From contig JAUYPV010000024.1 in the NCBI GenBank assembly GCA_030697555.1, forward strand, positions 1-33,267: 33,267 bases of DNA. Direction: 5' to 3'. Origin of the DNA: Hyphomonadaceae bacterium. GTDB lineage: Bacteria > Pseudomonadota > Alphaproteobacteria > Caulobacterales > Hyphomonadaceae. Shown here piece by piece: positions 27,594 to 33,267 of this stretch (positions are counted from its first letter, which is position 1; every line of letters begins with the position of its first letter). Under the pieces are notes generated by a model. It was not told where the DNA came from, searched no databases, and worked only from the letters and a program-made list of their open reading frames with translations. The position numbers and the translations under genes are program-made.

Positions 27594-27824
27594 TCAGCGG
27601 CGCCGGCGCCCATCGGGCTGGCGGTCGCCCTGATCGGTGTCGCCGAGGCTGCGCAATGGGCCGAAGCCTTCGGGCTGCACGCCGGCGCGCATGATGTTCA
27701 CGCTGTCGTGGTCCGCCCCGGGCGGTGTGTCGTCGACGTGCTCATCCTGATGAAGGCCGAAGACGCCGTCGTGGATCGGATGGTCGTCTGCCGGTTCGCC
27801 CAGCCGGCGCTTGTCAATGGACAT
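27594..27824 (-). CDS. Small hydrophilic protein, twin A
   Basis: 76 residues from ATG 27824, which has AGGAGG 6 bases upstream. It is very rich in Asp, Gly, Arg and Pro and has no hydrophobic core, so it is probably disordered. It ends in DTDQGDRQPDGRRRR. The gene at 27995-28228 encodes a protein sharing the same ending and the blocks PIHD.VFG, DDTP.GAD.DSVNI and GVQPE / AVQPE. The 3' DNA of the two genes is nearly identical (27601-27647 against 28003-28049, 45 of 47 bases). No EcfG site was found upstream. Function unknown. Confidence 0.78.
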   Translation of the reverse strand: MSIDKRRLGEPADDHPIHDGVFGLHQDEHVDDTPPGADHDSVNIMRAGVQPEGFGPLRSLGDTDQGDRQPDGRRRR

Positions 27825-27994
27825 CAAGGTCCTCCTATCGCCACTACCAAAGATGTGGGGAGGACGTTGCGTCGCTGTAAGGCGTCACAAGGCGCGCCAT
27901 AGCGAAATCACGCAGCCTGTTGCCGTCCGCGGAAAGGCGCGAGGCGGCAATCCTAGAGAGAGGTCTTTTCAGATTCCGGCGCCAGCTTTCCGGC

Positions 27995-28228
27995 TTACCT
28001 GCGCCGGCGGCCATCGGGCTGGCGGTCGCCCTGGTCGGTGTCGCCGAGATTGCGGATGGGCTGGTTGCGTTCGGGCTGTACCGCCGCGCCGATGATGTTG
28101 ACGCTGTCGGGATCCGCGCCTGCCGGCGTGTCGTCGGCGAGCTGGTCCTGCTCGTTGAGATGACCGAAGACGCTGTCGTGAATGGGCGCTTCTTGGGGAG
28201 TGGGTTCGAAGTGACGTGGCGTGCCCAT
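27995..28228 (-). CDS. Small hydrophilic protein, twin B, with EcfG-type promoter
   Basis: 77 residues, start ATG 28228 with AAGGAGG 8 bases upstream. It is a paralogue of the 27594-27824 product: APIHDSVFGHLNEQDQ, DDTPAGADPDSVNII, then NLGDTDQGDRQPDGRRRR. Charged, glycine- and aspartate-rich, without a predicted membrane segment; probably disordered. A GGAAC-N17-CGTT element lies about 40 bases upstream, so I infer general-stress control. Both strands are open here, but the ribosome binding site, the promoter and the paralogue all support the minus strand. Confidence 0.8.
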   Translation of the reverse strand: MGTPRHFEPTPQEAPIHDSVFGHLNEQDQLADDTPAGADPDSVNIIGAAVQPERNQPIRNLGDTDQGDRQPDGRRRR

Positions 28229-29843: not shown

Positions 29844-29905
29844 GATGGAACCCGGGGTTTCCCCGTGAGGGCGAATCCTAGGCCCGCAACTCAGCTTGCG
29901 CCACC

Positions 29906-29981
29906 GTGGCCGTGTTCGGCGCGACAAGCTGGAACTGTTAGGTCGGTGGAAGAACTATCCACCCGAGCGTGCACGCCGCGA
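29906..29981. repeat. 76-bp direct repeat, copy 2
   Basis: 68 of 76 bases match 29471-29546. Here the sequence has no start codon for the micropeptide frame, so it holds only a remnant. It overlaps the 3' end of the shortened paralogue at 29955-30056. Confidence 0.85.
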
Positions 29982-30056
29982 GCGGCGCGGCGCGACCTCA
30001 TCGGTTTTGTGCCCCGACATCCGCGGCCCATGCGGCGTCTCGTCTTCCCAAGACAT
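29955..30056 (-). pseudogene. Shortened paralogue of the 66-residue stress protein, with decayed promoter
   Basis: 33 codons from ATG 30056: MSWEDETPHGPRMSGHKTDE followed by VAPRR and a basic tail. The block TPHGPRMSGHKTDEVAP matches TPHEPRAPGDKTDETAP of the 28720-28920 product. The leader (AAGGAGTCACGCA before ATG) and 55 bases of upstream DNA align without gaps to the leader at 28921 onward. The promoter boxes are lost (GGAAC to GGAAT; CGTT to CTCT). I read it as a truncated, probably silent copy; it could still be a translated microprotein. Confidence 0.6.
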
Positions 30057-30165
30057 TGCGTGACTCCTTGCGGCGAAAGGAAAGAGAGCATGCGGAACGA
30101 TGGGATTCCGGGTCTCCCCTATTAGCCTTGCGCGGCAGTTCCGGGTGCTATTAAAAATGGCCCCG

Positions 30166-30223
30166 CAGCTCAATTGATATTTTCAGTTGACCTCAGGCTT
30201 TTATTAGGATATCGATTGAGCTG
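30166..30223. promoter_or_regulatory. Imperfect 15-bp inverted repeat upstream of the toxin-antitoxin-ATPase operon
   Basis: CAGCTCAATTGATAT (30166-30180) and ATATCGATTGAGCTG (30209-30223) are inverted repeats matching at 14 of 15 positions, with a 28-nt spacer. The spacer contains TTGACC (30187-30192), a possible -35 box. The repeat ends 38 bases before the first gene of the three-gene operon. A site for the HTH antitoxin-like protein is the simplest reading. A second small hairpin, AGCTG (30219-30223) with CAGCT (30231-30235), overlaps the right arm. Confidence 0.55.
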
Positions 30224-30260
30224 TCCTGGGCAGCTTGGGGGGCAATTTTAGGGGTCGAAG

Positions 30261-30593
30261 GTGGTATCGGATGAATTCCGAAAACGTCTGGCAGATCTGT
30301 GCGAGTCCAGGAGGACAAGAACCGCCAAGTTTTCCCCCGAAGCGCCTTGTGATTGGCGACCGAGATCCGTAACAGACCCTCGGACGAGAGAGGCATTCAC
30401 GGAAGATGGCGCGTGGGAGTTTGTCGCCGAGCTGCTACGAGCGGGGCACACCTTAACTGTCATCGAACTGGACTTGCCCCTTGGCAAGAAGGGCTACGTT
30501 CTTAAGTACTCTTCGCCGTGCGAAACCATAAAAATATACGTAAAACTTCAAATGCTTAGCGACCGGGTGAGGGGGCGTAGCTTTCACTCGTGA
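30261..30593 (+). CDS. Toxin candidate, MqsR-like (BECR-type) small protein
   Basis: 110 residues from a GTG start, with AGGGG 6 bases upstream. The middle reads DPRTREAFTEDGAWEFVAEL (helix) and GKKGYVLKY, and the end is IKIYVKLQMLSDRVRGRSFH. The final strand pair has the same layout as the end of MqsR (YLKI...V...SF), the RelE/MqsR-type BECR RNase fold. Toxin-first order and the zinc-ribbon HTH partner next door also fit mqsRA. I cannot identify catalytic residues with certainty, so RNase activity is inferred. Its stop overlaps the next start (TGATG). Base composition is lower in GC than upstream genes. Confidence 0.6.
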   Translation: MVSDEFRKRLADLCESRRTRTAKFSPEAPCDWRPRSVTDPRTREAFTEDGAWEFVAELLRAGHTLTVIELDLPLGKKGYVLKYSSPCETIKIYVKLQMLSDRVRGRSFHS

Positions 30594-31162
30594 TGTCCAC
30601 GAAGGAGTTGATGGTGAGTGGCGAAATGCATGATCCGAATGGTGAGGTTCGCGGCTGCGAGGATTGCGGCGGACGCAGCACATTAGTCTGGCGCAGTGCT
30701 CCCTTCGCCTATCTGGACGGCGACAAACAGGTCGAGCTCGTTGCTAGTATTCCAGTTTGGAAGTGCGCCAACTGCGGTGATCAGTATACCGACTCACAGG
30801 CTGAAGACATTCGACATGAATCTGTTTGTCACTATCTGGGGCGCCTAACGCCATCAGATATCAAAACCTTCCGGGAAGTATATCAATTGACCCAAGGAAG
30901 GTTGGGTGAGGTGACGGGTTATGGCGTAGCGTCAATTCGGCGATGGGAGACCGGAAATCAGATCCAGAGCCTTTCGGCAGATCGCTCTCTGAGATTGCTT
31001 TTCAGCAGCCCTGAGGTTTTTCGCATAGCGCTGAGGATTGAGGGTCGAAGCGATGGAGGCGTTCGTGGCGATCCCAAGTTCGTTACGCCCTTCTCTCCGC
31101 AGGTTCGTAGAGAGGCAGAGGTCTTTCAACTGCGGGCGCCGGCAGTTCAGAAGGCTGCGTGA
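30593..31162 (+). CDS. Zinc-ribbon plus HTH antitoxin/repressor, MqsA/YgiT-like
   Basis: 189 residues. The N-terminal zinc ribbon has two pairs, CEDC (22-25) and CANC (58-61), flanked by a beta-rich stretch. The C-terminal XRE-type HTH (about 85-125) has the typical LTPSDIKTFREVYQLTQGRLGE and GVASIRRWETG, followed by NQIQSLSADRSLRLL. This is the MqsA/YgiT domain order, in which the protein neutralises its toxin and represses the operon. A longer C-terminal tail (about 140-189) is unlike classical MqsA and might contact the third component. ATG 30593 overlaps the toxin stop by one base; its own stop overlaps the ATPase start in the same TGATG manner. Confidence 0.82.
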   Translation: MSTKELMVSGEMHDPNGEVRGCEDCGGRSTLVWRSAPFAYLDGDKQVELVASIPVWKCANCGDQYTDSQAEDIRHESVCHYLGRLTPSDIKTFREVYQLTQGRLGEVTGYGVASIRRWETGNQIQSLSADRSLRLLFSSPEVFRIALRIEGRSDGGVRGDPKFVTPFSPQVRREAEVFQLRAPAVQKAA

Positions 31163-33027
31163 TGTACGTAGTTACATTCTACTCCTTTAAGGGCGGCGTC
31201 GGCCGAACTTCGGCTTTGATGAACACCGCGACGCTGCTCGCAGCATCCGGCAAACGGGTACTGTTGGTTGACTTTGACTTGGAGGCGCCAGGCCTTTGTT
31301 CATATCGTGGACTTCAGGGCGTTCGCGGAAAGCCGGGCATTGTTGAGTACATTTCCGAGTTCGTTCGCGACAACATCGCACCTCGCGTGGAGTCATTTAT
31401 TAGCGAATGCGAATTGAATTCGCATCCAATCTGGATTTTGCCCGCCGGCAACATTAACGACCCCTCGTACTCGGAGCGGCTCGGCTCGATTAATTGGGAA
31501 ACGCTGTATGCGGAGCGCAGCGGCTACTTGCTCTTTGAAGACTTGAAACAGCAGTGGGAGACGTACAAAGAAATCGGATTCGACTACGTCTTCATCGACA
31601 GCCGAACAGGCCATACCGACATTGGCGGCATTTGCACTCGACAGCTCCCACACGCGGTAGTTGTGATGTTCTTGCCAACTGAGCAGAACATCGACGGGTT
31701 GGTTCCGGTGGTTGAGGCTGTTCGACGGGAAGCGATTAGCGCTCGTCGGCGAAAAATTGAATTACATTTTTGCCCGTCCAACGTTCCCAACCTGGATGAC
31801 GAGAACGATATCCTCGAAGGTATGTTTGAAAAGGCCAAATCAAGACTGGGCTACGACGAAGTCGCGTCGTGCATCCATCACTACAACAGCCTGGATTTGC
31901 TAAGCGAAGCTATCTTTTCTGTCGCTAGAAAAGGCACCAGCCTCGCTAAAGAATATGCGAAGCTCCGAGATGCCGTTGTGGCCTCAAATTACGATGACCG
32001 CGATGGAGCTGTCATCGCGATGAAGCGAGCCCTTGAGGCAGCCACGAGGTCGGAGGCCTTCGGTAAACTTAACAATTTGCCTCTCGATTCAATTCAAGAA
32101 ACACACGCAGACGACGCTGAGGTGGCAAGCTGGCTCGCGCGCGCTTACGGTATCATCGGGGACAATGAGCAGTCCCTGGCATCCTTGAATGTCGCGATCG
32201 AAGGGGGCTACGAGATCATTCGCAACCTGGCTTTGCGGGGCTCGTGTCATCTTTCGCTCGGTAATAGAGATGCTGCCTTGAGCGACTGGTTGAGTGTTCT
32301 GGAATTCAAGGATGCTCCCGCCGATCTTATTGTTCGAGCAGTGAACATGGTCCGAGATTTGGATCAAAGCGGTTGGGCTGCGGCAGTGGAAAAATCGACC
32401 GCATCACTTTCTCTGACGGGCGGCGATCGCCGCCGTTTGGTGCAAGTGCTCATGTCTGCGCCTGAGTCATTGCCGCTTGCGGTGCGATTGAGTGAAAAGG
32501 CGATGGCCGAAGAAGTTCTTTCCGCCGAGGATCGCGAGCACTACAAATACAAGATAGTTCTCGCGTCCATCGCGTTACATAAGTTTCGATACGCGATGCA
32601 CGCACTCGCCATCAATCGCAATGCAGTCCTAGAGAACGAAACGGTCGCAGATGTTTTCAACTACGCCATTGCAGAGTGGGGCCTGACGCGAAAAATTCCT
32701 TGTGACCTCTTCGCGCGGGTGGTCGAGTTAGGCCAGGCTATGTTGGAGAAAAGCAAAGGTGAGCGGTCTTTTGCCGCGAACTTTCTGCAATGTTTGGCGC
32801 TTGCGCATTTCGTTTGCGGCGACCGTCAACGGGCATTGGAACTCGTGAAGAGTTCTAATCGGCAGATTAAGCGCACCGGGCGGGCCTTCAGCTGCTGGAG
32901 CTTCCTGGAATTGCCTCAGGGGCAATTCTTGGAGGACAACACGCAAATGGAGGAGATGATGAAAGTCGATACCGAAGGGTTTGCGCCGAGGTTTTTCAAC
33001 CACTCCCAGAATACTCGATTGAATTGA
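31162..33027 (+). CDS. KGGVGR-motif ParA/MinD-like ATPase with helical-repeat C-terminus
   Basis: 621 residues. The N-terminal 260 residues are a SIMIBI-class ParA/MinD fold. The deviant Walker A is KGGVGRT (10-16), with Arg15 where ParA has the P-loop Lys; the signature Lys10 is kept. Walker A' is VDFDLEAPG (Asp37, Asp39) and Walker B is VFIDSRTG (Asp146). The rest (about 290-600) is alpha-helical and TPR-like, for example EVASWLARAYGIIGDNEQSL and ALRGSCHLSLGNRDAAL. KGGVGR ATPases of this type are frequent in bacterial conflict and signalling loci. Third gene of a coupled operon with the toxin/antitoxin-like pair; lower GC. Partner and substrate unknown. No clear terminator follows. Confidence 0.85.
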   Translation: MYVVTFYSFKGGVGRTSALMNTATLLAASGKRVLLVDFDLEAPGLCSYRGLQGVRGKPGIVEYISEFVRDNIAPRVESFISECELNSHPIWILPAGNINDPSYSERLGSINWETLYAERSGYLLFEDLKQQWETYKEIGFDYVFIDSRTGHTDIGGICTRQLPHAVVVMFLPTEQNIDGLVPVVEAVRREAISARRRKIELHFCPSNVPNLDDENDILEGMFEKAKSRLGYDEVASCIHHYNSLDLLSEAIFSVARKGTSLAKEYAKLRDAVVASNYDDRDGAVIAMKRALEAATRSEAFGKLNNLPLDSIQETHADDAEVASWLARAYGIIGDNEQSLASLNVAIEGGYEIIRNLALRGSCHLSLGNRDAALSDWLSVLEFKDAPADLIVRAVNMVRDLDQSGWAAAVEKSTASLSLTGGDRRRLVQVLMSAPESLPLAVRLSEKAMAEEVLSAEDREHYKYKIVLASIALHKFRYAMHALAINRNAVLENETVADVFNYAIAEWGLTRKIPCDLFARVVELGQAMLEKSKGERSFAANFLQCLALAHFVCGDRQRALELVKSSNRQIKRTGRAFSCWSFLELPQGQFLEDNTQMEEMMKVDTEGFAPRFFNHSQNTRLN

Positions 33028-33089
33028 ACGCACCCGGCAAGCTCGCCAGATCAGTCTTGGTATCGACGATGATCGAGAAAGCAGCCTGT

Positions 33090-33267
33090 CTAGTCCTCTT
33101 CCCGCAGCAGCTTCTTCTCGGGGAGGAGGAGCGGGCGGCGCTGGGCCATGCGCTGTTGCAGGGTCAACTGCGCAGGGGCTTCCTTGACGGCGTTGGCGCG
33201 GTCGCGGGCGGCCTTGGCCGGATCGAAGGGTCTGCGGTGATCGGGGATCTTGGCCACGGGTACGCCT
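33090..33267 (-). CDS. C-terminus of an unidentified gene, cut by the window edge
   Basis: Reading leftward, an open frame runs from the window edge to a TAG at 33092-33090. The visible end is AKIPDHRRPFDPAKAARDRA and, at the C-terminus, RRPLLLPEKKLLREED. It is polar, Arg/Lys/Pro-rich and GC-rich, like the ordinary chromosome and unlike the ATPase gene next to it. It may instead be a complete 55-residue protein starting at GTG 33257; its true start lies beyond what is visible. No family recognised. Confidence 0.55.
   Translation of the reverse strand, partial: GVPVAKIPDHRRPFDPAKAARDRANAVKEAPAQLTLQQRMAQRRPLLLPEKKLLREED

Follow-up and report, generated by a model that had tools for sequence, protein, structure and literature searches.

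Three adjoining plus-strand genes at positions 30261 to 33027 of a Hyphomonadaceae contig (JAUYPV010000024.1; its 33,267 nucleotides are the window analysed here) probably constitute a tripartite toxin-antitoxin-ATPase system, in which the ATPase would guard the antitoxin by way of the antitoxin's C-terminal tail. The genes are designated P1, for a candidate toxin, P2, for an MqsA-like antitoxin, and P3, for a ParA/MinD-like ATPase with a KGGVGR motif. An initial annotation, made from the sequence alone, had read the locus as a toxin-antitoxin pair to which the ATPase is tied as a sensor or control module; that interpretation is now supported by the conservation of the trio, the fold of the P1 model, and the statistics of the tail. 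The features of the locus are as follows.

30261..30593, plus strand: P1, candidate MqsR-fold toxin; GTG start at 30261, TGA at 30593, 110 amino acids
30593..31162, plus strand: P2, MqsA-like antitoxin; ATG start, TGA at 31162, 189 amino acids, with zinc ribbon, helix-turn-helix (HTH), variable linker and C-terminal tail
31124..31159, plus strand: C-terminal tail of P2; F-Q-L-R docking-like motif (F codon 31124-31126, R codon 31133-31135), then APAVQKAA
31162..33027, plus strand: P3, KGGVGR-type ParA/MinD-like ATPase with C-terminal repeats resembling tetratricopeptide repeats (TPRs); ATG start, TGA end, 621 amino acids
31189..31206, plus strand: deviant Walker A of P3, KGGVGR, in which arginine replaces the usual P-loop lysine
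31582..31611, plus strand: DYVFIDSRTG of P3, a Walker-B-like segment, which served as a search pattern
30166..30223: candidate operator of the HTH antitoxin, an inverted repeat with 15-nucleotide arms (30166-30180 and 30209-30223), 93% complementary and 28 nucleotides apart

Direct reading of the sequence confirmed the coordinates given earlier for the three genes and for the TGATG junctions that join them, at 30591-30595 (P1/P2) and 31160-31164 (P2/P3). An ATG at 30271, near the start of P1, is out of frame with it.

P2 scores above the cut-offs of Pfam family PF15731 (32.8 against 30 bits) and NCBIfam model TIGR03830 (62.4 against 61.8 bits), and alignment places its zinc ribbon cysteines at C22, C25, C58, and C61; it has the two CxxC motifs and the HTH that mark an MqsRA antitoxin. 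P3 belongs to NF047398, the KGGVGR-variant AAA ATPases (4.5e-49; 167.4 bits against a cut-off of 90). Searched against PDB, its profile finds Soj, ParA, and MinD over columns 1-49 and TPR proteins over about columns 280-550, and the N-terminal half also resembles the ParA-like partition protein phrog_164. KGGxGR is present at all 90 loci collected below (KGGVGR in 87, KGGTGR in two, KGGAGR in one). Both assignments agree with the initial annotation, which had named an MqsA/YgiT-type zinc-ribbon HTH antitoxin and a KGGVGR-motif ParA-like ATPase as second and third genes.

The MqsR-like toxin named there as first gene finds its backing in structure prediction. The model of P1 has the MqsR fold, the BECR-type fold of an MqsRA toxin, and the likeness between sequence profiles is weak (hhalign of P1 against MqsR relatives, probability 1.8%, E 0.027). 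P1 found no Pfam family at an E-value of 1, PF15723 (MqsR) included, and remained without a family in all four libraries searched, Pfam, NCBIfam, PADLOC, and PHROGs among them. Conserved residues of P1 are Y93, K95, R106, S107, F108, and H109. The catalytic residues of MqsR are K56, Q68, Y81, and K96; to judge from motif order, Y93 (in 67 of 68 sequences) and H109 (66 of 68) of P1 may stand opposite Y81 and K96. P1 is best described as a candidate MqsR-fold toxin, predicted to be of the RNase type.

Recurrence of the trio and exchange of its partners

Scanning a genome collection of 84,980 species for the ATPase yielded 547 relatives; counts of genome loci given here cover the best 80 of the 547, while counts out of 90 refer to all collections together, two rows of which repeat another row. 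Partners were sought in the 1.5 kb before the ATPase. The initial annotation had asked for such a survey of gene order, on the understanding that genes almost never found together would speak against a system. Relatives of P1 and P2 both lie upstream of the P3 relative in 74 of 80 genome loci; P2 occurs without a P1 relative in three (L092, L094, L111), and neither is found in another three (L053, L057, L087). Across all collections, 83 of 90 loci have a P1 relative and 86 of 90 a P2 relative. The hosts named include Pseudomonadota, Acidobacteriota, Planctomycetota, Myxococcota, Bacteroidota, Spirochaetota, Nitrospirota, Chloroflexota, and Omnitrophota; many loci come from metagenome-assembled genomes (MAGs), whose host names may be wrong. 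No further neighbour family, sought as a possible fourth cassette gene, occurs in more than 5 of the 90 loci.

The gene before the ATPase ends within 20 nucleotides of it in 74 of 80 genome loci, overlaps it in 21 of 80, and is never separated from it by more than 51 nucleotides (a stop, sought from 60 nucleotides before to 15 after the ATPase start, was found in all 80). Close coupling of the ATPase to the preceding gene is therefore the rule, and overlap is not. That the overlaps fix the proportions of the three proteins is a supposition of the initial annotation. MqsA-family and other HTH matches are common in genomes (TIGR03830 at 1e-3 in 177 of 200, with 21 over the cut-off), as would suit an ordinary MqsRA pair that came to lie next to an unrelated ATPase by chance. 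Chance adjacency is refuted by the survey, given the trio in 74 of 80 loci, its many phyla, and its short gaps.

The cassette is rare per genome. In 200 genomes comprising the window's own and its relatives, P3 has a full-length match only in the window's own; the best match elsewhere (E 9.6e-8, residues 3-79) is as expected of general ParA/MinD proteins. Of 385 alphaproteobacterial genomes, three have the ATPase at 1e-40; one of these is the window's own, and one match is partial. P1 is found in 3 of 398 Pseudomonadota genomes, its own included, and two of the three carry the ATPase. In the third (G286, locus L181), P1 and a shortened P2 are followed not by the ATPase but by another gene, which by eye is heavy-metal-ATPase-like; the locus looks as if the cassette had lost its third gene and tail. 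A tblastn search with P1 matched 4 of 72,556 plasmid records, and in all four relatives of P2 and P3 adjoin P1 (three of the four were read out); P1 is absent from the PLSDB gene table for these records, which is incomplete. Viral collections gave P1 in one contig and P3 in four, one contig being common to both, and a phage collection searched at 1e-10 gave none.

At several loci the ATPase stands behind other partners. At L034, L053, and L087 (pair 2) it is preceded by a 76-84 amino acid protein and a DNA-binding-type protein undetected by the MqsA profile, and at L057 (pair 3) by a 135 amino acid protein and an Xre-type protein; at L092 and L094 (pair 4) the antitoxin is MqsA-like and the first gene is of another kind. 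Labels given by eye to the first genes of these other pairs (HicA-like, RelE-like, DUF4258-like) were unconfirmed by Pfam and NCBIfam, and the first two also by PDB searches. In a tree of 79 ATPases, built by a quick method and cut from 90 rows by length (560-700 amino acids) and by removal of four near-copies, L034, L053, L087, and L057 form one group (99% by the Shimodaira-Hasegawa-like approximate likelihood-ratio test, SH-aLRT) within a group of 19 rows (100%); the 15 remaining rows of this larger group have MqsR-type pairs. Since these ATPases nest among MqsR-paired ones, the pair was exchanged and the ATPase stayed.

Homologues of the exchanged pairs also occur elsewhere. Pair 2 corresponds in PHROGs to phrog_5923 (unknown) and phrog_2620 (excisionase and transcriptional regulator). 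Homologues of the L053 pair stand on plasmid records of Pantoea and Enterobacter (92-107 kb, phage-plasmid-like by eye), where the 5.6-6.6 kb read contain no KGGxGR ATPase. On such phage-plasmid-like records the two genes, kin of phrog_5923 and phrog_2620, form a conserved pair (L177:2781-3663, L178:2718-3585, L182:2179-3064), which its relation to the ATPase-linked pair makes a candidate toxin-antitoxin pair. On Sphingobium baderi plasmid NZ_CP128179.1 (L235:2435-3859), two genes homologous to those of L057 (identity 33% and 32%) are followed by one for a 168 amino acid protein whose best of three PDB matches, a weak one, is 5mtw_C, the Mycobacterium tuberculosis TAC (toxin-antitoxin-chaperone) chaperone Rv1957 (E 0.19). 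With a two-sequence profile 5mtw_C is the sole PDB match (E 0.25), and a Pfam search of this protein did not report SecB. The comparison of L235 with L057 is suggestive of a SecB-like chaperone and the ATPase filling the same slot. The first and last genes of L235 are annotated as hypothetical only; the first is toxin-like and the middle one is of HTH type.

A C-terminal motif in the antitoxins

The motif [FW]-x-L, mostly followed by R, lies within the last 25 residues of the protein preceding the ATPase in 80 of 88 loci (72 of 80 genome loci); the 88 tails are the 90 loci minus two with identical ends (L119, L120). The same pattern is found in 9 of 88 when the preceding 25 residues are taken, in 2 of 25 MqsA-family proteins without an ATPase, in 61 of 723 neighbouring open reading frames (ORFs), and in a mean of 13.3 shuffled tails. 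Requiring K or R after the L leaves 53 of 88 tails, against 0 of 25 MqsA controls and 3 of 723 neighbour ORFs. Of the 57 representatives left when the proteins are clustered at 60% identity, 51 have the motif. The 25 MqsA-family controls exclude the window's own copy; 13 of them show both CxxC motifs, and the two [FW]xL matches, which fall among these 13, are both an LFKLL stretch before the end rather than a tail. Of the four upstream proteins missed by the MqsA profile, three have FxLR (L034, L053, L087, the first two being 80% alike) and the fourth (L057) has FVVR.

Six homologues beside which the stretch read showed no ATPase lack the motif: L177, L178, and L182, which are related records and kin of pair 2; L235, kin of pair 3, which has a different third gene and a long C-terminus; L035; and L181. 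As in TAC systems, the antitoxin here has a C-terminal extension that two-gene homologues lack, the motif-bearing extension being missing in L177, L178, L182, and L035.

Codons at the tail positions F, L, and R vary freely: the two Phe codons are used 42 and 35 times, and all six Leu and all six Arg codons occur. The L codon lies between 5 and 52 nucleotides from the start of the ATPase, depending on the locus. An RNA-level cause, such as a ribosome-binding site for the next gene, was rejected on both grounds; because synonymous codons are free, it is the peptide that is kept and not an RNA signal. The tail of P2 ends in Ala-Ala, making it a candidate degron of the kind recognized by ClpX. Such an end is found in 24 of 88 tails, 17 of 723 neighbour ORFs, and 1 of 25 MqsA controls.

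Proposed guarding of the antitoxin and its alternatives

Across loci the ATPase and the tail are constant and the bodies of toxin and antitoxin are not, which makes the ATPase the protein most likely to read the tail. In the mechanism we propose, P2 would neutralize P1 and repress the operon. The TPR half of P3, a nucleotide-switch ATPase, would bind the F-x-L-R segment in the otherwise variable tail of P2 and cover its Ala-Ala end, so keeping the antitoxin stable. N500 and N540 of P3 are invariant, and the surroundings of these residues or the F576-S577-x-W579 segment are candidate sites for a groove that would take up the tail. Were P3 titrated away by another ligand (a phage protein, or one made under stress), or its nucleotide state changed, the tail would be exposed, the antitoxin degraded, and the toxin free to act; the outcome might be defence against phage, arrest under stress, or addiction to a plasmid. 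Toxin and antitoxin body would be exchangeable as long as the tail is kept.

The proposal that P3 hides the end of the tail draws on an analogy with the extensions and chaperones of TAC systems and with toxin release in CmdTAC. The C-terminal extension of TAC antitoxins makes them dependent on SecB (PMC5105189; PMC6377645). In M. tuberculosis HigA1, a hydrophobic ClpX degron with terminal Val-Ala and the SecB site share one C-terminal extension (PMC8165232), and the chaperone of CmdTAC is drawn off by freshly synthesized capsid protein of the phage, whereupon ClpP degrades the antitoxin (PMC11618068).

Several observations weigh against this account of the tail. Eight of 88 tails lack [FW]xL; seven of these are near variants (FVVR, FRV, FRI twice, FRF, FEF, WSP) and one, L061, shows no likeness. 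The 88 tails come mostly from homologous MqsA-type antitoxins, and gain of the tail by other bodies rests on a single ATPase clade of four loci (L034, L053, L087, L057). The motif was counted in the same data that had first drawn attention to it, so that the numbers are descriptive and the controls are their informative part. The degron-like end is only partly specific, Ala-Ala being confined to the minority of tails counted above, and the last residue is Ala in 12 of 25 MqsA controls compared with 41 of 88 tails. Lastly, at L213:933-3817 (genome G960, also home of the Pirellulales locus L084) a more distant KGGTGR ATPase is preceded by an MqsA-like gene whose product has no clear FxLR tail, in view of which the tail code may be confined to the present branch of ATPases. 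The first gene at L213 resembles by eye those of L092 and L094.

The same tail and co-occurrence data would also be produced if P3 acted with the opposite sign. As an adaptor bound to the tail it would, once triggered, hand the antitoxin over to a protease or pull it off the toxin, and so activate the toxin. A nucleotide switch with TPRs suits an adaptor, as does the Ala-Ala end. We nevertheless think this unlikely: by analogy, the third proteins of chaperone-type systems protect (PMC5105189, PMC11618068, PMC8165232), and the absence of the tail from the six homologues without the ATPase fits a need for protection better, delivery being compatible with it too.

Less likely still is a tail unconnected with the ATPase. 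It might be a degron for a host protease or a second contact with the toxin, the ATPase acting on the toxin or serving as a separate sensor, and it is true that disordered antitoxin C-termini often carry degrons (PMC8165232) and that the tail ends are Ala-rich. Against it, the tail is kept when the first-gene family changes (pairs 2-4) and is missing from the homologous antitoxins seen without the ATPase, and we regard this explanation as very improbable.

Resemblance of the N-terminal half of P3 to Soj/ParA/MinD and phrog_164 raises another reading, in which the ATPase segregates or positions DNA, the tail ties it to the DNA-bound antitoxin as a ParB-like adaptor, and the cassette stabilizes a replicon through addiction plus partition. 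The antitoxin has a DNA-binding domain, and P1 is on four plasmid records, one of only 23 kb. This too is improbable, if somewhat less so than an unrelated tail. Arginine replaces the P-loop lysine in 90 of 90 loci, the TPR half is not a known ParA feature, and the Pfam families listed for the closest genes at 54 loci belong mainly to metabolism rather than to replicon functions. Positions 29900-33267 hold no repeat array, only four two-copy direct repeats of 14-18 nucleotides.

Guarding of the antitoxin by the ATPase thus remains our preferred reading. For its most general form, we would put the chances at about even: a ParA/MinD-type TPR ATPase would serve as antitoxin guardian, F-x-L-R plus a small-residue degron end would have been added to unrelated antitoxin families, the guardian would be interchangeable with SecB-like chaperones, and the nucleotide cycle would set the threshold for toxin release. 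How toxins are released is a long-standing question in toxin-antitoxin systems. If the proposal is true, an ATPase that reads a portable antitoxin tail would provide a sensor with a nucleotide switch, and would show that a protein unrelated to the chaperone can take its place in a TAC-like system. The short motif offers an easily mutated handle on the idea.

Genomic surroundings and comparison with known systems

Within the window, the trio has a guanine-plus-cytosine content of 0.52-0.55 against 0.61-0.68 over 24.0-29.7 kb, a drop that fits an acquired cassette. Genes to its left are ordinary where tested (M24 peptidase and PrmA, for example). An inverted repeat lies upstream of P1 in 10 of 79 loci, with 2.0 expected from shuffles; the one in the window may be the operator bound by the HTH antitoxin. 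A scan for consensus promoters gave no match, terminator-like sites numbered 3 against 4.0 in shuffles, and Rfam (at gathering scores) and tRNA searches of the window found none. Two tandem, alike minus-strand ORFs of 77 amino acids each (27594-27827 and 27995-28228, within 27594-28228) share a near-identical end.

Co-occurrence with defence islands, a check also proposed in the initial annotation, was examined by a PADLOC scan at 1e-20 of the nearest ORF of at least 150 amino acids on each side at 54 loci (108 ORFs). For the control, 20 stretches of 7 kb were chosen by their position on long contigs from 12 host genomes, and gave 99 ORFs. The test set matched 72 families (25 of them listed) against 23 in the control; every family listed was matched by one protein, and one protein can match many families. 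There is no clear sign of enrichment, which we neither claim nor exclude, the counts being of families and not of proteins. The 25 neighbour Pfam families listed, of 101, include ResIII (2), Uma2 (2), phage integrase (2), and RhuM (1). The test set has one DrmMI and one DrmA match of DISARM. In a Pirellula MAG (L094, 47-11216) the ATPase cassette is flanked on either side by a very large gene, and from size and order these two genes are probably the matches.

No complete defence system catalogued in PADLOC-DB 2.0.0 (2023) was found: P1 has no match, the best for P2 is 0.0016 (RmrA), and P3 matches only two PDC-M28B models, in part. The initial annotation had known of no described system with exactly this trio, and our full-text literature searches likewise found none; subscription papers and preprints lay outside them, and an earlier description is possible. 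A search for KGGVGR returned unrelated matter only and one for PDC-M28 nothing, and the text of PMC7159879 has no KGGVGR, MqsA, or BECR.

From MqsR/MqsA (YgiU/YgiT), the system differs by a P1 outside Pfam MqsR, by the antitoxin tail, and by the third gene. With PDC-M28B (1.1e-30 over residues 5-235 of P3, the first 130 PDC-M28B positions being unmatched) and the KGGTGR ATPase of Rhizobium beringeri pRlX4 (L036), it shares the N-terminal ATPase domain (NF047398); the L036 ATPase has another partner and another C-terminal half. By eye, L036:4709-8250 encodes a TIR-like protein, then the ATPase, whose C-terminal half is formylglycine-generating-enzyme-like. The ptuXYZ system likewise combines an ATPase and a RelE-superfamily (BECR-fold) toxin in one operon, but its ATPase is PtuA-like and accompanied by a DUF262 nuclease, and no MqsA-type antitoxin is named in the available part of that paper (PMC11980606).

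The closest likeness is to TAC systems (HigBA1-SecBTA, HigBAC, MqsRA-type, HicAB-type, CmdTAC). Like them, the trio has a third gene beside a toxin-antitoxin pair and an antitoxin extension absent from two-gene homologues, and one type of third gene serves several antitoxin families, which in TAC are HigA, MqsA, and less often HicB (PMC5105189). Unlike them, the third protein is not SecB-like but a KGGVGR ATPase with TPRs. The ChAD regions of TAC antitoxins, moreover, showed no significant similarity to one another where compared in the available text (PMC5105189), whereas here a single short motif is shared by nearly all of the tails.

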